DNA of 64,000 nucleotides from Nitrosopumilus sp. (GTDB lineage: Archaea > Thermoproteota > Nitrososphaeria > Nitrososphaerales > Nitrosopumilaceae): assembly GCF_025698945.1 (NCBI RefSeq), contig NZ_JAILWM010000001.1, forward strand, positions 186,001 to 250,000. Direction: 5' to 3'. The translations under genes and the position numbers were made by a program. The notes under the pieces were generated by a model. It was not told where the DNA came from. It saw only the letters and a program-made list of their open reading frames with translations, and made no database searches. Of this stretch, positions 41,189 to 63,418 are shown in pieces; positions within the stretch are counted from its first letter, which is position 1; each line of letters begins with the position of its first letter.

Positions 41189-41593
41189 ATGAAGACTAGG
41201 AATCTTGCTATTTTAATTGCAGTGATTGGAATTATTGTGGCATTAATCATTGGAGTAAACTATGAATCAAGTAATGATCCTGCGTTTCCATCAGACTATC
41301 CACTAATTTCTCAAAATGACATGTTTTGTTGGACACAGTGGTACATGCAAAGTACAGTAATTGATGAAAAGAAATTAATTTCATCCATAAGATCTGCAAT
41401 CTCAATGTTTGGTTCTGATTTTGATATTCCAAATAGAGAAATTACAATATCTCACAATGAGGAGGAAACTATAATCTCAATTGGCGGTTCATGGACAAAA
41501 GATAAAGCCAATCATGAAAAACTAACAGCGGTAATTAAAAATCATATTGGTGATTCTGAATTAATCCGAGACGACATTGTTTTGTGTACTTGA
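41189..41593 (+). CDS. Small membrane-anchored exported protein
   Basis: A 134-residue protein starting MKTRNLAIL with an N-terminal anchor helix (about 5-26) and an extracellular alpha/beta domain with Cys in MFCWTQW and the C-terminal VLCT. Its start shares the recurrent GAAAATGAA(G)ACTAG junction of the array and follows the previous gene by 3 nt. Function unknown. Confidence 0.6.
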   Translation: MKTRNLAILIAVIGIIVALIIGVNYESSNDPAFPSDYPLISQNDMFCWTQWYMQSTVIDEKKLISSIRSAISMFGSDFDIPNREITISHNEEETIISIGGSWTKDKANHEKLTAVIKNHIGDSELIRDDIVLCT

Positions 41594-47408: not shown

Positions 47409-48446
47409 ATGAAATCTATCTTTTTGATGATAACTCTGTTTGCATTAACTCCTTTGGTTATTCCTAATGTCTCAGCTATGTGTGCTGCAGAAATAAATTA
47501 TGATAATGTATTAAAAGAATCTGAATTAGCATTTACAGGGACTGTTACACGTCTTGATAATTATGATGGACCACAAAAAGTCACATTCCTTATTCATGGT
47601 GTAGTTAAAGGAGAAGTTAATCTTCCAAAACATATTTTTGAAAATAATGGAATGATGTTTCTTGAAAATGATACTGTTACAAGTTCTTCTGTTGATGTAG
47701 ATTATAAAATTGGAAAGACCTACAAAGTATACGTTATTGATGGTGAGACAAGTTCGTGTACTACAAAGATTACTGCTTCACCTGAAGGATACATGTGGGA
47801 ACCAGGACCTGAGGATGGGAATTATTATTCAGAGAATTCAGTATATGTAGATCCTTGTGATGAGGGATATGGATTATCTGACGGCGTTTGTGTTACTTTT
47901 GAAGAAATGAATAAGGATCTTTCTTCCTGTGATCCAAATCCAAATCATGACTTTGGAAAATGCAAAAAGAATACAGAAGAACCAGACAATAAACTGCAAG
48001 ACGTTTTGGATAATTGTACCTGCCAAGAATCTGGACAGGATTGCATAGAGCCTTTACTTAGATGGTGGAATACAACTCATTTTATTGATAACACTGACTG
48101 TGAATTTATAGACAGAGTTGAGGGTTCTCCAACATATGCCAAACCATTTAGTGATGATATTACAAAAATTCCTGAACCTGAACCAGAACAAAACCCTCTG
48201 GAATATGAGACCTGTGGTCCTGGAACAACGCTGCAAGATGGTGTATGTGTAGTAAACTCAGAAAATGAAAATGTTGAGACTGGAGTGAAATGGGGATCTG
48301 TTTATGAAAAATTACCTGCTCCGGATTTGGAACCTATACTCGATTATGATTATGAACTCATCTATTTGACAATTTTTGTAATTGTGGTAATTATTGGTGT
48401 GGCTGTAGGAAGTGTTATTTTTGTAATTAGGAGAAAGAGAAAATGA
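47409..48446 (+). CDS. Surface protein with N-terminal TIMP/netrin-like domain and C-terminal anchor
   Basis: A 345-residue protein: signal peptide about 1-24 (NVSA-M), mature MCAAEINYDNVLKESELAFTGTVTRL, i.e. a Cys near the N-terminus and the aFxGxV strand of the TIMP/netrin OB family, with strand YKVYVIDG and a further Cys (SSCTTK). A Cys-rich middle follows (CDEGYG, CVTF, CKKN, CTCQESGQDC). C-terminus is a membrane helix (about 316-339) with RRKRK. It overlaps the next gene by 4 nt. Function unknown; an inhibitor- or adhesion-like role is possible. Confidence 0.6.
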   Translation: MKSIFLMITLFALTPLVIPNVSAMCAAEINYDNVLKESELAFTGTVTRLDNYDGPQKVTFLIHGVVKGEVNLPKHIFENNGMMFLENDTVTSSSVDVDYKIGKTYKVYVIDGETSSCTTKITASPEGYMWEPGPEDGNYYSENSVYVDPCDEGYGLSDGVCVTFEEMNKDLSSCDPNPNHDFGKCKKNTEEPDNKLQDVLDNCTCQESGQDCIEPLLRWWNTTHFIDNTDCEFIDRVEGSPTYAKPFSDDITKIPEPEPEQNPLEYETCGPGTTLQDGVCVVNSENENVETGVKWGSVYEKLPAPDLEPILDYDYELIYLTIFVIVVIIGVAVGSVIFVIRRKRK

Positions 48447-50653: not shown

Positions 50654-51829
50654 ATGAAGTATTTTTTGATTTTCATTATTTTGATTGGTTTTTTGATTCC
50701 TTCAATTACATTTGCACAATATCTGGGAGATGTTGAATTTTACCACCTTCCTTTGACCGTAGAGTCAAAACAATACTCTATTCTAGCTCAATCCAATACC
50801 AACCACTTCACTGATGTGGTATATGACAGCAAAGCACACTCTTTAATTTTTTTAACGTCCTTATCTGAGGATTTTATCGACACTTATACTATAACCATGA
50901 ATGTACAGACATTTTCAGAAGTACTTGCCACAGATTATGCAAAAACTTCTGACTCTATGGTGGTGCTGGTAAATGGCGTGGATCAACCCTACAAAACCAT
51001 TGAAGACAATGAAATTATTTCATGGATCTTTTATGCACCAATATCATCTGATGAAGTAGAATTACTTCCTTCTAGTCCTAGATTTGGTACTGGTACATAC
51101 AAATTTGATAAAATTCCAAATGGATCTCCTAAAATTTATCCTCCATTAAAACAAGATCATGTTGGAATTGCTACTGAAAACATCCAATGCAAAGACGAAT
51201 TGCTTTTACTCCAAAAATATGATGGTTCTCCTGCATGTGTAAAACCAGAGTCAATTAACATTCTTGTTCATAGAGGATGGGCTGATGAAAAATTCCGAAC
51301 TCTGCCAATAATCGACTTTCAAAACCCAGATAGGATTTTTCGTGAGGTTGGGTATTTGGGATTGATGATGCTTCTTCCACACATAGAAGAAAACCAGACT
51401 GTAGCAATATCGCTTGAAGGTAAACCAAACATGATTTTACCGATTATTCAATACTATGAAATAGAAATTTTATCAGAAAAAACCAATACAAAAGAATCTT
51501 TTTCAAGCGTTTTTGGAAAAATTACCAAATCAAACCTCCAAAAATTCTTTGAGGAAAATCCAATGAATCTTTTTGTTAAACGTGGGGTACTAATGACATC
51601 ATTAGGGGGATATCAAGACAATATTGGAACCTATGGACCATTCAACCAATTTCTTACCGATAACGAGTCTCAGATAATTGGGGATGCTTTGACTTATTAT
51701 GAAAACAAGAGAACAAATGGAGAGGATGTACACTTTGATGATTTTGTCAAATGGCCAACCGGTAAACTCAACGAGTCATTTCTTCAAAAATCAAAACTGC
51801 TGGATATTGCCCGGATTGGAACTCCGTAA
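50654..51829 (+). CDS. Secreted protein with Cys-x15-Cys...RGW motif
   Basis: A 391-residue exported protein: signal peptide about 1-21 (ITFA-Q), an N-terminal Ig-like beta domain, then the array-wide motif CKDELLLLQKYDGSPACV ending in HRGW, and a C-terminal alpha/beta domain. Upstream sits the 27-nt element. Function unknown; the motif recurs at 57621, 59073 and 62228. Confidence 0.65.
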   Translation: MKYFLIFIILIGFLIPSITFAQYLGDVEFYHLPLTVESKQYSILAQSNTNHFTDVVYDSKAHSLIFLTSLSEDFIDTYTITMNVQTFSEVLATDYAKTSDSMVVLVNGVDQPYKTIEDNEIISWIFYAPISSDEVELLPSSPRFGTGTYKFDKIPNGSPKIYPPLKQDHVGIATENIQCKDELLLLQKYDGSPACVKPESINILVHRGWADEKFRTLPIIDFQNPDRIFREVGYLGLMMLLPHIEENQTVAISLEGKPNMILPIIQYYEIEILSEKTNTKESFSSVFGKITKSNLQKFFEENPMNLFVKRGVLMTSLGGYQDNIGTYGPFNQFLTDNESQIIGDALTYYENKRTNGEDVHFDDFVKWPTGKLNESFLQKSKLLDIARIGTP

Positions 51830-52192: not shown

Positions 52193-52282
52193 GTGAAAAT
52201 TGAATATGGAATTATTATAATAACTGGAATATCATTGATTGTTGTTGGAACACTTTACGTATTATGGAGATTAGAAACATGA
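52193..52282 (+). CDS. Tiny single-TM protein (29 aa)
   Basis: GTG start, MKIEYGIIII then one membrane helix (about 6-24) and WRLET. It begins 3 nt after the zinc-ribbon stop and overlaps the next ATG (ATGA at 52279). The N-terminus resembles the MKLEY signals of 41596 and 52279, so it may be a leftover signal cassette or a genuine small membrane protein. Confidence 0.4.
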   Translation: MKIEYGIIIITGISLIVVGTLYVLWRLET

Positions 52283-53223
52283 AACTAGAATACGTAATAA
52301 TTGCAGCAGTAGGAGTTTTGGCTTTTGTATCTCTTGGGTTGATTGCAAATGATCCAAATGACGTTGTCTCTTTTTCTGGTCTTGAAAAGATAAACCAAGA
52401 TGCACAAGATGCAAAGGCATCAGAAAATCAAGATCTTCTTGACAAAAACAGATTAAAAATGAAAAAACATCTAGAAACAGTTACATCATCATCTCTTGGG
52501 GTGGATATAGACTCGATATATCTCAAAGAGGATTGGAATTTCCCATTTCGGGATTCATCTGAAGTAAAACACACTCTAGAAGAATACGAATCAACTCCTA
52601 TCTGCAACATACTGCCAAACCTTTCTCTTCATCTCCAAAACATTCGCCAAACAGAACTTTTTCAAATGTATGGCGAAAAGTACCAGAACTATTTCATAGA
52701 ACTTGACATTGCCGATGAGCGATACTATAATTCTACAGTTCATTATGGGTTTTCAGCCAAGTCTGGAAACAACCATGCATCAACTCACTTTCATGTGGAT
52801 TCTTGCACTGGTCAGACATCTGACTATCTTTACCTTCGTTGTCATAACCCTGTGCTTGGAAACGGCACGGGAAGCAACTATCGCAACGAGGTCATTACCA
52901 GCCTTCAGAGCGATGAGTTTTGTAAAATTATTTTGGAGCCTTGGAAGGAAAAACTTGCAAAATACAATGAAAAAATCTCAAATGATGTTGACACCTATCT
53001 CGTAAAGATACAGCAACAAGACAGTAATAGTCCTGAGGATATGATTCCGATTACAAAGGATCTGCATCGATTAAACCAACTTGATAACATGGTGCGTCTT
53101 GCAATGGATGGCAATCATGATGGTGCAGAATTTTCTGAAAAAATGAAAAAATATGAACTACGGTATGGCTCTCTGCCTGATGAATTCTTGGAATTACTTG
53201 GAGAAATAGAAAATGAAAATTAG
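52279..53223 (+). CDS. Membrane-anchored exported protein
   Basis: A 314-residue protein from ATG 52279 (the longer frame to 52264 would ignore the ATGA coupling). MKLEYVIIAAVGVLAFVSLGLIANDPN is an anchor nearly shared with 41596. The outer part is mainly helical with Cys in TPICNIL, DSCTGQ, LRCHNP and EFCKII. It ends IENEN-stop inside the next gene's start (11-nt overlap). Function unknown. Confidence 0.6.
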   Translation: MKLEYVIIAAVGVLAFVSLGLIANDPNDVVSFSGLEKINQDAQDAKASENQDLLDKNRLKMKKHLETVTSSSLGVDIDSIYLKEDWNFPFRDSSEVKHTLEEYESTPICNILPNLSLHLQNIRQTELFQMYGEKYQNYFIELDIADERYYNSTVHYGFSAKSGNNHASTHFHVDSCTGQTSDYLYLRCHNPVLGNGTGSNYRNEVITSLQSDEFCKIILEPWKEKLAKYNEKISNDVDTYLVKIQQQDSNSPEDMIPITKDLHRLNQLDNMVRLAMDGNHDGAEFSEKMKKYELRYGSLPDEFLELLGEIENEN

Positions 53224-54205
53224 ATTTTTGATAATAGTCGGAATTTCTATATCTGTAGGTGTGATTTTGTTGTCTAGCTTTTCGATACAAAAAGACGAAC
53301 AAGCGTATGTTTTGTTTTGTAATCACTGGATATTTTCTGACCGCATCACCTGCGATGTGTTATGGAGCGAGTCAGACCGTAACACACCAGTAATGAAATA
53401 CGACATCTCTGAAGAACCCTGGGAAAATCTTTTGTCTCATCCAAGAGAAGAATCCCTCAAAGAACTCCAAAAAATATTTGATGAGAACGGAAAGTTTTTC
53501 ATGGATGTTAAAATCATTGGTTTGAAAGATTACTATGTTCTAGGCGAAAAACTGGCATTCACTGTTGTAGAAGCAGGTTATGGAATTCCGTGTACTCATC
53601 CAAAAATTATGGTTTCTAGAGATGGAGATGATAAACCTCATTGGGACTATAACTTTGTACATTCATGTCCTTTCTTCAAAGAAGGCCATCCGATTCTATC
53701 ATACGTGAATGTTCCCCACAACAACAGAGTAATGCCTCCGATAACAGAGTCAGGACAATACACAATCACTGCATCATCTAGCTATGATTCGTTTACATCA
53801 AGACAATTTGCAGTATTGGAGTCTGATTTTGTTTATGATTATGATATATCTTACACTAAAAGTGGAAACAACACTGGATATACTTCATTGAACATTGATT
53901 TGAATAATGGCAACTATGTACTTGATCAAAATTCTAAACTAACCCGTGATGTATTATTTGATGAGGAATTAGAAGAATTAAAACAACTTGTTGATGAAAA
54001 TGACTTGTTACGAGGACTCTCAAGTGTTTCTCACGATAGAGATCCTGCATGCAAAACCTGTATCAATTATGAGATGAGAATCTCTCTTGGTGATTATACG
54101 CATTTTGTACAGTGGCAAAATGATAAAGATCGTCTAAGAGAAAAACACATCTTTGTGATCGAAATGCTTGAAGAATTACTGGAAACCATGGGAGGTAGAA
54201 AATGA
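53213..54205 (+). CDS. Membrane-anchored exported protein, shares domain with 60941
   Basis: A 330-residue protein starting MKIRFLIIVGISIS with anchor helix (about 4-24). An outer domain (IIGLKDYYVLGEKLAF...GIPCTHPKIMVSRDG...FVHSCP...GQYTITA) corresponds to one in the protein at 60941 (MITDLKDELEQDE...WCIMPSILVYHQD...IVHTCP...GQYTIWG). The C-terminal part (DPACKTCINYEM...) has a CxxC pair. Overlaps 11 nt upstream and 4 nt downstream. Function unknown. Confidence 0.6.
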   Translation: MKIRFLIIVGISISVGVILLSSFSIQKDEQAYVLFCNHWIFSDRITCDVLWSESDRNTPVMKYDISEEPWENLLSHPREESLKELQKIFDENGKFFMDVKIIGLKDYYVLGEKLAFTVVEAGYGIPCTHPKIMVSRDGDDKPHWDYNFVHSCPFFKEGHPILSYVNVPHNNRVMPPITESGQYTITASSSYDSFTSRQFAVLESDFVYDYDISYTKSGNNTGYTSLNIDLNNGNYVLDQNSKLTRDVLFDEELEELKQLVDENDLLRGLSSVSHDRDPACKTCINYEMRISLGDYTHFVQWQNDKDRLREKHIFVIEMLEELLETMGGRK

Positions 54206-54630
54206 ATACTAGATACAAAATAATTATAATTGCTGTAATAATTGTAGCTTCTATTCCTGGAATTATTATTTTTGGAGCTGTGCCTTTGATGATTGTAACA
54301 AATGCATATTCAGGTTTTATTATGTTTTCAACTTCTGATAAAGCATTTGAAGAAGATTTTGCAAAAATACCTGAAGTAAAGATCTTCATTGAAAAATATC
54401 CAAACTACACTACACACCATTCGGCAGATTTTCTGGGATGGAAAGTGATTTACTATGAAGCAATTGAAAATGAAAAAATTCTACATCTGTATGTCAAAAA
54501 GAGTGTTTTACATCACGGTGTTAAGATTAGTGCAGGATGTTCAAATCTTGGAAGCTATAGCTATGGATATGATATTTTAGATGAACAAGTTATGGATTAT
54601 ATAAAAAATGACCGGTGTGTGGGAAAATGA
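54202..54630 (+). CDS. Small membrane-anchored exported protein
   Basis: A 142-residue protein starting MNTRYKIIIIAVIIV, anchor helix (about 5-35) and outer alpha/beta domain with two Cys (SAGCSNLG, DRCVGK). It is coupled by ATGA at both ends. Function unknown. Confidence 0.55.
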   Translation: MNTRYKIIIIAVIIVASIPGIIIFGAVPLMIVTNAYSGFIMFSTSDKAFEEDFAKIPEVKIFIEKYPNYTTHHSADFLGWKVIYYEAIENEKILHLYVKKSVLHHGVKISAGCSNLGSYSYGYDILDEQVMDYIKNDRCVGK

Positions 54631-55124
54631 AAACTAGGCTCTTGATGTTAATTGTAGTTGTTATTGGATTGTCAACATTTGTTGTATTTTCAATAATACT
54701 TCATTATGTTCAACCTTCTAAAACAGATAAAATTGAAGTAGATTCGATATATGGATTTGCCATAGATGATGAATTTGGAAATGTAAGACATTATCCTATA
54801 GGTGAGTTAGATATTATGCCCTGTGAAGATTTTATCTCAATTTGGGATCCAGTATTCCTTGAACTAAATGAGGCAGACATGTTAAATGAAAAATTGTCTA
54901 GTTGTAGGGCCTCACTATTGGAAGTTATTCATGCAAATACAGTATGTTCACAATATTGGAGAGTAGAATTAATGGAAATGAATCAGGATCCAAAATATGA
55001 TTTCCTAAATGATCCTATCTACCAAGAATGTTCAGAAGTATTGAATATGAAGAATCTATGTGAAGCAAATGGTGACACTTGGATTCGTGAGAAACTAGAG
55101 TGTGTAAAAGAAAATGAAAACTAG
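54627..55124 (+). CDS. Small membrane-anchored exported Cys protein
   Basis: A 165-residue protein from ATG 54627: MKTRLLMLIVVVIGL anchor (about 4-26), outer helical domain with Cys in MPCEDF, SSCRAS, TVCSQYW, QECSEVL, NLCEANG and LECVKE. It ends KENEN-stop inside the serpin start (11-nt overlap). Function unknown, but it is directly coupled to the serpin. Confidence 0.58.
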   Translation: MKTRLLMLIVVVIGLSTFVVFSIILHYVQPSKTDKIEVDSIYGFAIDDEFGNVRHYPIGELDIMPCEDFISIWDPVFLELNEADMLNEKLSSCRASLLEVIHANTVCSQYWRVELMEMNQDPKYDFLNDPIYQECSEVLNMKNLCEANGDTWIREKLECVKENEN

Positions 55125-56349
55125 ACTTTTGATAATTGGATTTGTTGTCCTGGCCGGTACAGTGTTTGGTACGTTATTCCTCTATAATGGTTTACCCCAA
55201 GACAAAACGATGAATGGAAATTCTATAGACAATGCAACTGTAAACAAGGATGATTTTGTCTTTTCATTGTATCACCAGATAGCCAAAGACAACAATACAT
55301 CAAACTTCTTTTTCTCGCCATTTAGCATCTCGACTGCATTTTCTATGGTATATGAAGGTGCACGCGGAGACACTGCAACCCAGATAATGGATGCATTTGA
55401 CTTTCCACAAGATGACAGAGAACGTTGGAATGGCATGTCAAATACTATGAAAAGACTAAACCATGAAAAAGGATTCTATGCCTTGAATGTTGCAAACGGC
55501 ATATGGTTATCTGATGTACATGAAACAAAACCAGAATATGTTGATGTCGTGACAACCCACTATGACGGAACAGCAGAATCCGTCGACTTTGCTAGCAACG
55601 ATGGTGTAGATAAGATAAACCAGTGGGCAAAAGAAAAGACAAGAGGCAAGATACAAAAAATACTAGAACATGGTTCTACTGATGATCTTACTTTGCTTGT
55701 CCTTACAAACTCAATATACTTTAACGGAGAGTGGGCCAACAAGTTTAGTCCAAGAAATACCAGCGAAGAACCATTCTGGACAGGCAATGGTAAATCAGTA
55801 AATTCACAGATGATGAAGATTCCAGCCGACGTGTTTAACTATGCAGAGACAGATACACTCCAGATTCTTGAGATGCCCTACCTTGGAAATGAAATATCCA
55901 TGCTTGTGTTGCTTCCAAAAGACAAGAACGGACTGGATCCTCTTGAAGATTCTCTTAACTCAGACAAGCTAAACGATGTCAGAAACACAATGAAAAAGCA
56001 GCCTCTTACAGTTCACATCCCAAAGTTTGGATTTGAGAGCGATTATGACCTTATTCCTTTACTACAAAAACTTGGAGTACTTGATGCATTTGATGAGAAA
56101 AAAGCAAACTTTGCTGGAATGACAGACCAGCAGGCATTTTTGAGCAAGGCAAAACACAAGGCATTTGTTGATGTTCATGAAAAGGGAACAGAGGCGGCTG
56201 CAGTAACAGTAGCCATTGGTCAGTTGGAGAGCGGACCTCCTGAACCAAGACATGAATTCATTGCAGATCATCCTTTCATGTTTGTAATACAGGAAAAATC
56301 ATCTAGAGAGATACTTTTCATTGGCCATGTAATGGATCCTACAAGTTAG
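55114..56349 (+). CDS. Membrane-anchored serpin (serine/cysteine protease inhibitor)
   Basis: A 411-residue serpin with N-terminal anchor MKTRLLIIGFVVLAGTVFG. Serpin landmarks: FFFSPFSISTAFSMVYEGARGDT, NVANGIWL, INQWAKEKTRGKIQKIL, LLVLTNSIYFNGEWANKF, HIPKFGFESDYDL, and HPFMFVIQEKSSREILFIGHVMDP. The reactive loop (358-379) starts GTEAAAVTV, with small hinge residues expected in inhibitory serpins. Aligned without gaps to alpha-1-antitrypsin, P1 is Glu372 and P1' Ser373. It is somewhat more GC-rich in codons than neighbours. It is 3 nt before a TIMP-like gene. Confidence 0.93.
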   Translation: MKTRLLIIGFVVLAGTVFGTLFLYNGLPQDKTMNGNSIDNATVNKDDFVFSLYHQIAKDNNTSNFFFSPFSISTAFSMVYEGARGDTATQIMDAFDFPQDDRERWNGMSNTMKRLNHEKGFYALNVANGIWLSDVHETKPEYVDVVTTHYDGTAESVDFASNDGVDKINQWAKEKTRGKIQKILEHGSTDDLTLLVLTNSIYFNGEWANKFSPRNTSEEPFWTGNGKSVNSQMMKIPADVFNYAETDTLQILEMPYLGNEISMLVLLPKDKNGLDPLEDSLNSDKLNDVRNTMKKQPLTVHIPKFGFESDYDLIPLLQKLGVLDAFDEKKANFAGMTDQQAFLSKAKHKAFVDVHEKGTEAAAVTVAIGQLESGPPEPRHEFIADHPFMFVIQEKSSREILFIGHVMDPTS

Positions 56350-56352
56350 AAC

Positions 56353-56874
56353 ATGAAAACTAGACTCTTGATAGTAATTGGATTGGGTCTTATGTCATTT
56401 TTAACATTTATTCCACATAATGCATATGCTTGCTCTTGTGATGGGTATCCTGATTATTTGCGACTTTTAATGGAATATGATACTGCATTTCAGGGAACTG
56501 TTACAAAAATAATACAAAATGATCACAATCAAGAAATCCATTTTGATGTTACTCTTCCACAAAAAAACATATCTCAAACCAATGAGTTTGTTCTTGAACA
56601 ATCATTGTGGAACAGTTGTATTGTAAATTATAACGTTGGTGAAACCTATCAGGTCTTTGTTTATGGTGATTCAACAATCGGTAAAACAAACATGTGCAGC
56701 ACAAAACAAATTACTGGATTTCATGAATATTCTCATGAAGATGAGAATGGTCAAATAGAACATTTCAGAGAAGATTATAACATTTTAACTCAATACAATC
56801 TTGGAACAATAATACTTCCCATAATAACTGCAATGATAATACCAAGCATTATTGTTTGGAGAAAGAGAAAATGA
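56353..56874 (+). CDS. TIMP/netrin-like surface protein with Cys-x-Cys mature N-terminus
   Basis: A 173-residue protein: signal peptide 1-26 (NAYA), mature N-terminus C27-S-C29, then DTAFQGTVTKI (OB-fold strand), C89 and C115, and a C-terminal membrane helix (about 149-169) with RKRK. In TIMPs, Cys1 and Cys3 pair with later cysteines and the free alpha-amino group of Cys1 binds the protease zinc; the spacing here (1, 3, 63, 89) is similar to TIMP (1, 3, 70, 99). It directly follows the serpin. An alternative is a non-inhibitory netrin-like adhesion module. Confidence 0.62.
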   Translation: MKTRLLIVIGLGLMSFLTFIPHNAYACSCDGYPDYLRLLMEYDTAFQGTVTKIIQNDHNQEIHFDVTLPQKNISQTNEFVLEQSLWNSCIVNYNVGETYQVFVYGDSTIGKTNMCSTKQITGFHEYSHEDENGQIEHFREDYNILTQYNLGTIILPIITAMIIPSIIVWRKRK

Positions 56875-56912
56875 GAACTAGAATTAAAAACACAACTCAT
56901 CAGAAGAATTAA
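56871..56912 (+). pseudogene. Vestigial signal-peptide cassette (13 codons)
   Basis: Starts MRTRIKN with the array junction GAAAATGAGAACTAGA, overlapping the TIMP-like stop by 4 nt, and stops after 13 codons. Reads as a remnant of the usual next gene at the end of an array segment. Confidence 0.35.
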
Positions 56913-57620: not shown

Positions 57621-58754
57621 ATGAAAGTTTTAGTGATTTTTGCAATAGCGTCTATAATCATGCTATCTGGACTCGTGCGACCTGTATCATCTCAAATGAT
57701 GTGCGCAGGGGGTGATGAAGCGTTTCATTTTACTGTAAGTGACATAGTATTAATCGGAACCGTTACTGAAATCAATCCCTCTACTAATACAGAAAGATAT
57801 GATTACATTACTTTTGATGTCAAATATCCATTGAAGGGATTAGGTAATGTAACGGATTTTACCGTGGCTACATATCAGGGTGGAAGTTATTCTTATGATT
57901 TTAAAATTAATTCAGAATATCTAGTACATGCAAACGAAAGAAAAGGAGTACAATATTTTACAGATCTTTGTAGTGCAAACCAGTTACTAAAAACTGAAAA
58001 AGACGTAGAAGATATGAAGGACAAACTGCTTGAAATAAACACACCTCCTCCATTAAAACAAAAACAATACGGTCTTGCCTTACATGCAATCAAATGCAAA
58101 GAAAATCTAGTTTTAATCCAAAAGTATGATGGAACACCAGCTTGTGTAACGGAATCGACCAAACAGAAACTGATTGAGAGAGGATGGACTTCAAAAGATA
58201 ATTCGATATTAAAGATTGGTACTAGTACAAACTGTATGACACTTGAACAAAGTAAGGAAACTGCACCATTTTTCAAAATTCCAACTTATTTGCCTGAAGG
58301 ATATGAAAATGTATGCTCACAGTCGGGAACACCCTCTGAGTCGTACATAGTGTATCATTATCAAGGAATTCCGTACTGGAATATACCTGAATTGATAAGT
58401 GATGGTGCAATTTTCATTTATCAGGTAGATGAAAAAAATATTGTACCGGCAGAAAAGTTGGAAACCCTTGGAACTGCAGAGCAACGAACCCAAGAAACTT
58501 ATGATGATGTAATGAACAGAAATCCTTCACTATATCCACAACTGATCAGAATTAACGGAATACTAGCATATGCAGTTGACTCGTGTCCTGATTGTGGGAT
58601 ACAGACTGCAAACTTTACTGACGGAACATTTGTTCAAAAATCAACTTCTACAGAAACGAAAATCAAATTTATTGATGAAAATGGAGTTAATTACATGCTT
58701 AAAACGACCTTACCGTTAGACGAATTAATTTTGGTAGCAGAATCACTTCAGTGA
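57621..58754 (+). CDS. Secreted protein with NTR-like domain and Cys...RGW motif
   Basis: A 377-residue exported protein: signal peptide about 1-24, mature start QMMCAGGDEAFHFTVSDIVLIGTVTEI resembling a TIMP/netrin-like N-domain (Cys near start, then a V-x2-G-T-V strand, later DLCSANQLL). Then the motif CKENLVLIQKYDGTPACV...IERGW, and a C-terminal domain with CMTLEQSKETAPFFKIPTYLPEGYENVC. Upstream lies the 27-nt element. Function unknown. Confidence 0.62.
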   Translation: MKVLVIFAIASIIMLSGLVRPVSSQMMCAGGDEAFHFTVSDIVLIGTVTEINPSTNTERYDYITFDVKYPLKGLGNVTDFTVATYQGGSYSYDFKINSEYLVHANERKGVQYFTDLCSANQLLKTEKDVEDMKDKLLEINTPPPLKQKQYGLALHAIKCKENLVLIQKYDGTPACVTESTKQKLIERGWTSKDNSILKIGTSTNCMTLEQSKETAPFFKIPTYLPEGYENVCSQSGTPSESYIVYHYQGIPYWNIPELISDGAIFIYQVDEKNIVPAEKLETLGTAEQRTQETYDDVMNRNPSLYPQLIRINGILAYAVDSCPDCGIQTANFTDGTFVQKSTSTETKIKFIDENGVNYMLKTTLPLDELILVAESLQ

Positions 58755-59072: not shown

Positions 59073-60944
59073 ATGAAATATCTTGTAATGTTTCTTGTGG
59101 TATGTTCTTTTTTTACGGCAAGTACTGCTTATGGGATATGGCTTCCACAATCACCTGAAGAACTGTTGGAAAAAAGTCAAGTAATCTTTGTTGGAACCAT
59201 TATGTCTGTAGACAAGTTGGAACTCGAACAACCGGTACATGATGAGAATTTTCCATTGATTCTTGATGAATATACTGTATCTGTAGAAGAATCTATCAAA
59301 GACACACAAATTCCTGAAACCATTACTGTAAGACAACCAACAGTAAGCACTCCTGGTAGGCTTTTGCCGTATGAAGGATTTGAAGTGGGAGACAGGGTTT
59401 TGTTTTACATTGAATCATTTGATGGCATCAATACATATTCAAAAGAATCATTTCTGATTCCAGAACAGTGTAACACACGCTCTGTACTTGCAAAACCCCG
59501 CATGATTGGATCTGATTATACCGTGGTGCAAGACGGAATTGAAAAACAAGATAACTTTACTGCAAACTCTCCAATACAATTTACAGCTAAAAGAGACATG
59601 GGTACATTGTTTGGTGCAAGCTTGGAGTATGATGTGTTTATCAGCAAACAAGTAGGAAAAACATACAACAACATTGTGTTGAATCAAACCATTACTGCAG
59701 ACTCACAACCATGTGAATGGTTGTCTGTAGCTGAATGGGAGTTTACACCTGATGCTGGAAACTATCTTCTAAATGGCAGAGTCTTCAAAGTAATGTCGAA
59801 TTTCTCTATTAGCAATCAGTTCTTTTCTGTACTGGCGGAATCTCCATTAAAGCAGTTCAAGTCAGGTGTTTCTTTTGATGAAACACAATGCAAAGACAAC
59901 TTGGTTTTAATCCAAAAATATGATGGTTCTCCTGCATGTGTAACTCTGCAAACAAAAGAAAAATTGATTGAGAGAGGATGGATTAACATCAATATTTCAG
60001 AAAACAAAAACGATTCTGAAAATGATACCTTGACAACTCAAATAGTTATTGATCCCTCAAACCATTTTTATTTTTCAGGTGATGAGATAGTTATTCGTGG
60101 CAATGTCTGGGATTCTGAAAAAACAGATCTGCAAAAAATTCCTGTTCTGGTCCAAATTTATTTTGGTGATGAATTAGTTGACGCTGTACATGCACAATTA
60201 TCTGATGATGGCATCTTTTCACACAGTGTAATGGCCTTAGGGCCACTATGGCAGCAAAGTGGCATTTACACAATCACTGCATCATATGATTCTGAAACTG
60301 TTGCTCAGAATAAATTTGGTTTCTCAGCATACTATCAGAATACCTCTGAGCGATATTTTGTAAATTCTGATACTGATGATTATGAAGAACTGTGCGGATA
60401 CCCTGTAACCCATGAGATGAGGAGAGACATTGTTGAATCACTAAAACATGCAGATGATAGAATTCCTCTTGTGGAATTGAACCAAGGGGTTTTCACACAT
60501 GTGGAACGTTCTTTGTACTTGACAGACATGCCTCGTTTACAATATTGGTATGACATAAAAGATGAAAGACAGATGTACTTTGAGATTGAAGCATGTGCAT
60601 TTGATGACTCTTTTATTATACACTATGTATATCCTGGTCCAAACCATGAGGAATCACAAGACATTGTTATTGACGGAGTTTATCACAAGATACTTTCAGC
60701 ACCTGGCTCTCCCTTAATTTACAAAGATTCTCTTCTTCCTGTACTAGACGTTGATAATTGCAAAAGAGTTGCAGATAATTATACAAAAAAAGAAAGACAG
60801 GACTTGTATACACGTGAAAATGCACACCCTGAAGCATCTTGGAACAACCAGATATTTCTTTTAATGGATTACTGTACTACTATTGGAAATTTTGAGATGA
60901 CAACTGTTGATGGACAAATTAATTGGATTTTTACAGAAAAATGA
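59073..60944 (+). CDS. Large secreted multidomain surface protein
   Basis: A 623-residue exported protein: signal peptide about 1-20 (AYG-I). N-terminal NTR-like domain (SQVIFVGTIMSVDKL...GDRVLFYIESFDG), a second beta domain, the motif CKDNLVLIQKYDGSPACV...IERGW (near residues 273-303), an Ig-like domain (FSGDEIVIRGNVWD...GIYTITASYDS), and a C-terminal Cys-containing domain (ELCGYPV, EACAFDD, DNCKRVAD, DYCTTIG). Preceded by the 27-nt element and coupled to the next gene by ATGA. Function unknown. Confidence 0.65.
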   Translation: MKYLVMFLVVCSFFTASTAYGIWLPQSPEELLEKSQVIFVGTIMSVDKLELEQPVHDENFPLILDEYTVSVEESIKDTQIPETITVRQPTVSTPGRLLPYEGFEVGDRVLFYIESFDGINTYSKESFLIPEQCNTRSVLAKPRMIGSDYTVVQDGIEKQDNFTANSPIQFTAKRDMGTLFGASLEYDVFISKQVGKTYNNIVLNQTITADSQPCEWLSVAEWEFTPDAGNYLLNGRVFKVMSNFSISNQFFSVLAESPLKQFKSGVSFDETQCKDNLVLIQKYDGSPACVTLQTKEKLIERGWININISENKNDSENDTLTTQIVIDPSNHFYFSGDEIVIRGNVWDSEKTDLQKIPVLVQIYFGDELVDAVHAQLSDDGIFSHSVMALGPLWQQSGIYTITASYDSETVAQNKFGFSAYYQNTSERYFVNSDTDDYEELCGYPVTHEMRRDIVESLKHADDRIPLVELNQGVFTHVERSLYLTDMPRLQYWYDIKDERQMYFEIEACAFDDSFIIHYVYPGPNHEESQDIVIDGVYHKILSAPGSPLIYKDSLLPVLDVDNCKRVADNYTKKERQDLYTRENAHPEASWNNQIFLLMDYCTTIGNFEMTTVDGQINWIFTEK

Positions 60945-62227: not shown

Positions 62228-63418
62228 ATGAAAATTCAACTTTTAATAATTATTGGAATGATTGGACTGGGCATTATCGCGATAAATACGACATATGCTC
62301 AGTGTGTCCCTGATCCTGAAAACACACGTGCTCCATGCTATGACAATCCTACCACATTAATCATTAAACCACATGAAGCTAAAATTGAAAATATCGACGG
62401 ACAATTGTTTTATGCCATAGGCCCTTTTTCATTACAAAAAGAGTCTGAGGATAGAATTCGTTTGAATGACGTGACTTTTACCTATCCTTCATATCCAAAT
62501 CCTCCAGTGCCTGGAGGACCTGTATCTATCACAGTAACATTTGATGATGGAACAAGATATCATATTTCTAAAGTCGGCACACCTTTACCATTTGTTGAAT
62601 TTAGAGAACATCAAGACCAACAGGCAGGAGTTAGGCGTAATACAGATGGCACTTTTAATTTTCTGCTAAGTGCTGACAAACAATCCCTATCTCCACTAAA
62701 ACAAATCAAATCAGGGGTTCCATTAGTTGATGTTCAATGCTCAGATGGAAAACATGCTGTTTACAAATACAATAGAATGAGAGTTGCATGCGTAACAGAA
62801 GAGACACAAAGTGAATTGTGGAATAGGGGATGGGCAACAATGAGATTTTACACAGAAGAAAATACTTCGGCACATGCATTATGCAACAACTTTGAAGGAA
62901 AATGGCATCCCGAAAATAGAGGATGTCGAAATATTTCTGATCATCAGTGTTCTTTGATGGGGGGAGAATTTGTTCATGATGTAAGTATTTATTCCGCTGG
63001 CATATATTCTCCCAAAATTGTTTCTATGTGTGTAACCATGGATGCTTACGATGATGAAGATTTTAGTTTTTATCGTCTTTTGATGTCAGGTGAATCTTTA
63101 GCTGTGAATGCATCAAATTCTGATTTTATAGAAATACCATACAAAATTGAAAATGGCAAATTAAAACAAATGAAACATGAAGATGTCTCTTCATTGATAC
63201 TGGATATTGATTCAGAGTATGGTGGAAATCTGACTATGGTCATTCCATTTGGAATAATTGATAGAATTCCAGAGGATGCACATCTAAGCATAATGGTTTT
63301 AGTAAATGGTGAGGAGATAGATTATCAAATATCAGAGTATAGATCTGGCGCACGTTCTATCTATATTGAATTTACTCAAGCAAATCCACAAATTGAGATC
63401 ATAGGTGCTTGGTGGTAA
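62228..63418 (+). CDS. Secreted protein with Cys...RGW motif
   Basis: A 396-residue exported protein: signal peptide about 1-24 (TYA-Q), N-terminal beta domain with FTYPSYPNPPVPGGPVSITVTFDDG, then the motif CSDGKHAVYKYNRMRVACV...WNRGW. A Cys-rich segment follows (LCNNFEGKWHPENRGC...QCSLMGGEF...SMCVTMD), and a C-terminal beta domain (YGGNLTMVIPFGIID). Starts 3 nt after the previous gene with a diverged array junction. Function unknown. Confidence 0.62.
   Translation: MKIQLLIIIGMIGLGIIAINTTYAQCVPDPENTRAPCYDNPTTLIIKPHEAKIENIDGQLFYAIGPFSLQKESEDRIRLNDVTFTYPSYPNPPVPGGPVSITVTFDDGTRYHISKVGTPLPFVEFREHQDQQAGVRRNTDGTFNFLLSADKQSLSPLKQIKSGVPLVDVQCSDGKHAVYKYNRMRVACVTEETQSELWNRGWATMRFYTEENTSAHALCNNFEGKWHPENRGCRNISDHQCSLMGGEFVHDVSIYSAGIYSPKIVSMCVTMDAYDDEDFSFYRLLMSGESLAVNASNSDFIEIPYKIENGKLKQMKHEDVSSLILDIDSEYGGNLTMVIPFGIIDRIPEDAHLSIMVLVNGEEIDYQISEYRSGARSIYIEFTQANPQIEIIGAWW

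Follow-up and report, generated by a model that had tools for sequence, protein, structure and literature searches.

Adjacent genes for a serpin and a predicted membrane-tethered N-TIMP-like protein in an exported-protein array of Nitrosopumilus

In a stretch of 64,000 nucleotides from Nitrosopumilus sp. (positions 186,001 to 250,000 of contig NZ_JAILWM010000001.1, hereafter the window) we found a serpin gene followed on the forward strand by a gene for a second membrane protein. Predicted structure and family profiles together give good support for the second protein as an N-TIMP-like domain of the NTR superfamily. This fold call is the interesting result, and both folds that the first-pass annotation had named were right. 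We consider the locus best explained, with reasonable probability, as coding for two inhibitor-type proteins that are tethered at the cell surface and lie next to each other within an array of exported proteins. What the serpin and the N-TIMP-like protein do is something we infer. As an operon the two genes are not conserved, and each of them is patchily distributed.

The host genome is complete (1.75 Mb), and the window is part of its contig 1. Both genes are located in tandem arrays of genes for exported proteins. In the ORF coordinates the annotated adjacency is seen directly: the stop codon of the serpin is followed by three bases (AAC) and then by the start of the N-TIMP-like ORF, both on the forward strand. 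According to the ORF list, at least six genes for exported or membrane proteins, these two included, follow one another in the same direction (52264-56874), and their junctions are overlaps of 11, 4, 4 and 11 nt and finally the 3-nt gap. The four upstream genes, joined by start-to-stop overlaps (52264..55124, +; 52264-53223, 53213-54205, 54202-54630 and 54627-55124), gave no protease-inhibitor match in Pfam. It had been claimed that the serpin and its neighbour sit in one transcription unit. The co-directional run agrees with this, but the two genes do not form a unit of their own, as at least six genes are joined.

The serpin gene (55114..56349, +) encodes 411 aa from ATG to TAG and is present as a single copy in the host genome. 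Its annotated identity was confirmed along the whole length by Pfam, where residues 45-409 aligned to positions 3-370 of the 370 positions of the PF00079 profile with E 1.3e-115, i.e. a full-length serpin domain of the family that MEROPS lists as I4. The best relative in the PDB was conserpin (E 3.2e-71). A hydrophobic segment at approx. residues 6-24 (55129..55185, +), with a hydropathy peak of 2.27 at residue 6, suggests a membrane anchor or a signal peptide, as judged by hydropathy only. The serpin contains no Cys, hence no lipobox Cys. The hinge and reactive-centre loop EKGTEAAAVTVAIGQLE/SGPPEPRHEFIAD (56179..56268, +; the slash marks the predicted scissile bond) were assigned by motif and counting. 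When 17 residues are counted on from the Glu of the hinge, P1 is Glu372 and P1' is Ser; Leu371 is the alternative P1. The hinge, EKGTEAAAVT, has small residues at P15-P9, and GTEAAA was invariant in alignment A3. Many serpins of ammonia-oxidising archaea (AOA) share the hinge and the P1' Ser, the P1-P1' pair being T-S, Q-S or E-S elsewhere. With its hinge intact, the serpin is by its sequence of the inhibitory type. Conserpin, Pnserpin, Tkserpin and other prokaryote-type serpins likewise combine a full serpin domain with an inhibitory hinge; the serpin described here differs from these in its predicted N-terminal membrane segment and, by counting, in a Glu at P1. We propose that the N-terminal segment would hold the serpin outside the membrane, where it would trap serine proteases that cut in the QLE/SG loop, for example subtilases.

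The protein encoded 3 nt downstream (56353..56874, +; 173 aa) was assigned as N-TIMP-like and membrane-tethered from AF2 models and from fold and profile matches to the PDB. Residues 1-26 (56353..56430, +) form a signal peptide with a predicted signal-peptidase-I site, AYA/C27, placed by alignment A1 and the -3/-1 rule; the Ala at -1 was invariant in ten relatives. The mature NTR/N-TIMP-like domain comprises residues 27-133 (56431..56751, +), as delimited by the predicted model and VIA, and contains Cys 27, 29, 89 and 115. It is followed by a C-terminal transmembrane helix (approx. 151-169; hydropathy 2.16) and a cytosolic RKRK (56803..56871, +). A hydrophobic C-terminal segment with a basic end was common to the relatives. 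Both sequence features noted at first pass, a predicted mature N-terminus Cys-Ser-Cys and a strand of the FxGxV type, were present: the hydrophobic N-terminus ends in AYA/CSC, and the strand reads AFQGTV. Its homologues are exported domains in which Cys residues cluster at the N-terminus and an [FIV]xGxV strand and a C-terminal Cys are present, and position 2 of the C-x-C motif varies among them (S, Q, L or E). The protein is thus predicted from its sequence to be exported and tethered at its C-terminus, and for both proteins we infer, in agreement with the first-pass annotation, exposure at the surface.

Three other readings of the sequence were rejected. Anchoring as a lipoprotein via Cys27 was not retained, because the preceding AYA fits signal peptidase I and not a lipobox. 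A zinc-protease look-alike, HEYSH, was dropped, as relatives vary at this place (HEYSH, SEYSH, EEYSH, DEYSH). The TIMP-like match of several short MKTR proteins was signal-peptide similarity only and was lost on masking of the first 18 residues.

Searched alone, the 173-aa protein had no relevant match in Pfam, NCBIfam or the PDB sequences, and a contig scan with this single protein found no relatives; only family profiles were useful. The whole-protein AF2 model (pLDDT 65) matched NTR domains best, namely those of PCOLCE, meteorin, C345C, agrin NtA and TIMP. A model of the mature domain built from 17 relatives of the CxC type reached pLDDT 78.5 and pTM 0.70. The best three of 350,542 chains in Foldseek were TIMP-3, TIMP-1 and TIMP-2 (E 1.2e-3 to 2.2e-3), and VIA-align superposed the model on N-TIMP-3 with Z 11.1 over 98 residues at 3.0 A, residue 1 falling on residue 1. 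The first-pass annotation had put its OB/TIMP fold at risk of a predicted structure that is not an OB fold; the model is one, with TIMPs ranked first. The NTR/OB fold, the N-terminal Cys and the profile similarity found here are those of the NTR superfamily.

The profile of the 17 relatives (A5) had TIMP-2 as its best PDB sequence (E 0.0054), with the four Cys collinear. Three of the 17 matched Pfam TIMP (E <=1; best 3.1e-5) and four matched Pfam NtA (best 1e-4), and one relative scored 20.5 bits against the TIMP cut-off of 23.1 (PF00965). The N-TIMP-like protein itself had no PF00965 match at the curated cut-off. In TIMP N-domains, disulfides join Cys1 to Cys70 and Cys3 to Cys99. Among 58 archaeal domains the middle Cys was present in 19/19 with C-x-C and in only 3/39 without it, one of these three being a fragment with its N-terminus lost. 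Such covariation of Cys1 and the middle Cys is what the two TIMP disulfides predict, and we regard the TIMP cysteine pattern as borne out, the disulfides being matched by position and covariation. The third N-domain disulfide and the six-Cys C-terminal domain of TIMPs are absent from the protein, which has four Cys and, at its C-terminus, a membrane helix. As these two elements and an own Pfam match are missing, we named it an N-TIMP-like NTR domain and not a TIMP. It is thus like the N-domain of animal TIMPs (PF00965) in its NTR/OB fold, predicted mature C-x-C, two disulfide positions and residue-1 register, but differs in its C-terminal membrane anchor, and its inhibition is putative. A literature search on prokaryotic TIMP-like proteins gave no relevant paper in the collection searched.

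TIMPs are known from animals as inhibitors of animal metalloproteases, with Cys1 chelating the catalytic zinc. By analogy, cleavage at AYA/C would leave a free N-terminal Cys1 on the archaeal domain, exported via its signal peptide and anchored by its C-terminal helix, and this Cys1 might chelate the catalytic zinc of metzincins; we hold this as a minority bet. The alternative is that the domain is a plain binding module, serving adhesion or binding at the S-layer surface with no inhibitor role and with a serpin as its neighbour by coincidence, and we give this nearly even chances. NTR folds include non-inhibitors such as agrin NtA, which binds laminin, and complement C345C. These share the fold and matched the domain almost as well as TIMPs did, and the wider A4 profile ranked agrin NtA first (E 2.5e-4). 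Several NTR-like domains are present in the genome, mostly without Cys1 and some in long multidomain proteins. However, for the CxC subfamily TIMPs ranked first both in the profile search and in the model comparison, and in contrast to NtA and C345C it has the pair of Cys1 and middle Cys, for which a domain that only binds would have no need.

Within the window, a paralogous NTR-like domain without Cys1 and its partner are encoded at 47409..48446 (+; 36% identity, E 6.5e-7, alignment A2). NTR-like domain proteins are also found at 57621..58754 (+; Cys1-less; profile match E 6.7e-27) and at 59073..60944 (+; N-terminal cysteines absent; profile match E 7.4e-24). Directly 3' of the N-TIMP-like gene there is a short open frame, MRTRIKNTTHQKN-stop (56871-56912), that resembles the leftover of another MKTR-type gene. 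A short recurrent domain, xxLVLIQKYDGSPACVTxxTxxKLIERGW, occurs at 50654-51829, 57621-58754, 59073-60944 and 62228-63418; it was seen in many exported proteins of the arrays and also N-terminal to some AOA serpins.

The serpin and the TIMP-like gene had been put forward as a pair, and a conserved pair was not what we found. No serpin lies within approx. 6 kb of the three closest relatives of the TIMP-like protein (73, 65 and 49% identical), and other exported proteins are encoded upstream of them. An NTR-like gene was at distance <=1 from the serpin in 3/35 loci against a null mean of 3.9, and at distance <=2 in 8/35 loci against 5.9 (P 0.15), where the null placed the serpin at other gene positions within its locus and the gene calls came from our own ORF filter. 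Adjacency no greater than chance follows from the density of NTR-like genes in such islands, and it also agrees with the binding-module alternative. Direct joins of serpin and NTR-like domain (the L093 fusion and G121, see below) are no commoner than expected. Outside the ammonia oxidisers, NTR profiles detected no NTR-like gene in the examined flanks of serpin loci. Under our preferred explanation the adjacency would reflect lineage-specific ordering of exported-protein arrays.

At the level of genomes the picture is different in part. Within the genus, a serpin was present in 8/11 genomes with a CxC-type gene and in 8/84 others (Fisher p 1.3e-5, kinship ignored). Among large complete genomes p was 0.003, and on permutation within strata of genome size and of array size, kinship again ignored, it was 0.08; for NTR genes not of the CxC type against serpins p was 0.36. 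The nearest CxC gene was 3 nt to approx. 10 kb from the serpin in four of the eight co-occurring genomes, where the two may only share islands. For co-occurrence in relatives, which the first-pass annotation had proposed as a check, the genome counts point to an association that is weaker in the stratified test, and adjacency does not exceed chance. We concluded that conserved linkage does not show the two to be paired inhibitors, and that genome-level co-occurrence leaves this as a possibility.

Regarding what the proteins might act on, the host genome has two S8 proteases and seven Peptidase_M10 matches. The motif HELGHSIGLTH...IMYP, which combines the zinc site of metzincins with their Met-turn, lies in an open frame of 480 codons that also has TPR repeats, and a further metzincin motif of the genome reads HELGHTLGLKH. 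Matrixin-like matches were at G000:C1:516746, 614461, 371768, 309709, 739294 and 734109 of this genome, one with TPR repeats. In the genus, matrixin-type matches were found in 83/95 genomes, so that an internal target exists. The CxC-type gene was found in 11/95 genomes; matrixins being far commoner than this, the gene is dispensed with in most relatives. NTR-like genes are present in all five genomes whose matrixin matches were strongest (E < 1e-22; G128, G054, G016, G015, G059), a coincidence seen post hoc that serves as a lead only. Under our preferred explanation the targets would likely be secreted subtilases and matrixins, of the archaeon itself or of its neighbours. The cell's own subtilases and matrixins are as good a class of candidate target as proteases of grazers, bacteria or viruses, against which the first-pass annotation had suggested a defence.

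A housekeeping role, in which the inhibitors restrain the cell's own secreted subtilases and matrixins at the membrane, appears to us conceivable though rather doubtful. The proteases just described for the same genome speak for it, and so does a published case of a sponge AOA in which serpins and S8 peptidases co-localise and for which the authors suggest control of own or host proteases (PMC6790972). Yet when the predicted proteins of the window and of the following 28 kb were scanned for motifs, neither an S8 nor a metzincin motif was found, and the proteases have a far broader distribution than the inhibitors. Still less likely is an archaeal TIMP-matrixin system, in which tethered Cys1 domains control the matrixins of the same or of neighbouring Nitrosopumilus and were acquired along with surface serpins. 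If it were true, TIMP-type inhibition would predate or parallel the animal form. A tethered archaeal N-TIMP-like domain next to near-universal matrixins makes zinc chelation by an N-terminal Cys testable outside animals. A functional antiprotease pair that shields the surface from serine and metalloproteases of grazers, hosts and neighbours is improbable: the CxC/serpin co-occurrence (not seen for other NTR genes) and the four genomes with a nearby CxC gene would fit it, but adjacency is at chance level, the stratified p is 0.08 and half of the serpin genomes of the genus lack a CxC gene.

At the serpin start we noticed a junction word, AAATGAAAACTAGA (55112..55125, +; genome-wide pattern search), which also encodes the end of the upstream gene (ENEN-stop). 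The host genome has 13 matches to the word, eight within 43 kb, and 0 to the reversed word; in 95 genomes of the genus there were approx. 193 exact matches against 16. At its matches the word overlaps the upstream stop as ENEN-stop or RKRK-stop. At twelve MKTR starts the Thr codon was always ACT, compared with 37% in the window, which argues that the DNA word is kept and not the signal peptide alone. It is possible that AAATGAAAACTAGA is a cassette junction, and shuffling of gene cassettes at the word would explain the changing neighbours. The word and near variants were also observed at the starts of exported-protein genes at 41189, 42710, 54627, 55114 and 56353 of the window and in G000:C1:228-272 kb.

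According to the serpin passages of PMC6790972 and PMC7848895, sponge-associated AOA have secreted serpins, proposed to act on own or host proteases, and serpins were described there for sponge symbionts and for one non-sponge AOA, Nitrosotenuis chungbukensis; these passages do not mention a TIMP-like neighbour. As described there, the sponge-associated proteins are like the serpin presented here in being secreted archaeal serpins of ammonia oxidisers. We found serpins in 34/250 Nitrosopumilaceae genomes and in 13/22 genera, carriers including Nitrosopumilus sp. SuakinDeep_MAG45_8 and HKST02. AOA serpins are thus more widespread than the published picture of sponge symbionts. One 722-aa exported protein of an uncultured Nitrosopumilus (G022; L093:9347-11515) is a fusion in which a Cys1-less NTR-like domain precedes the serpin, and in G121 the serpin starts three bases after the end of an NTR-like gene. 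The serpins at L089 and L090 (G276 and G275) are 800-860 aa long with long N-terminal extensions, and the extension at L089 resembles NHL-type repeats.
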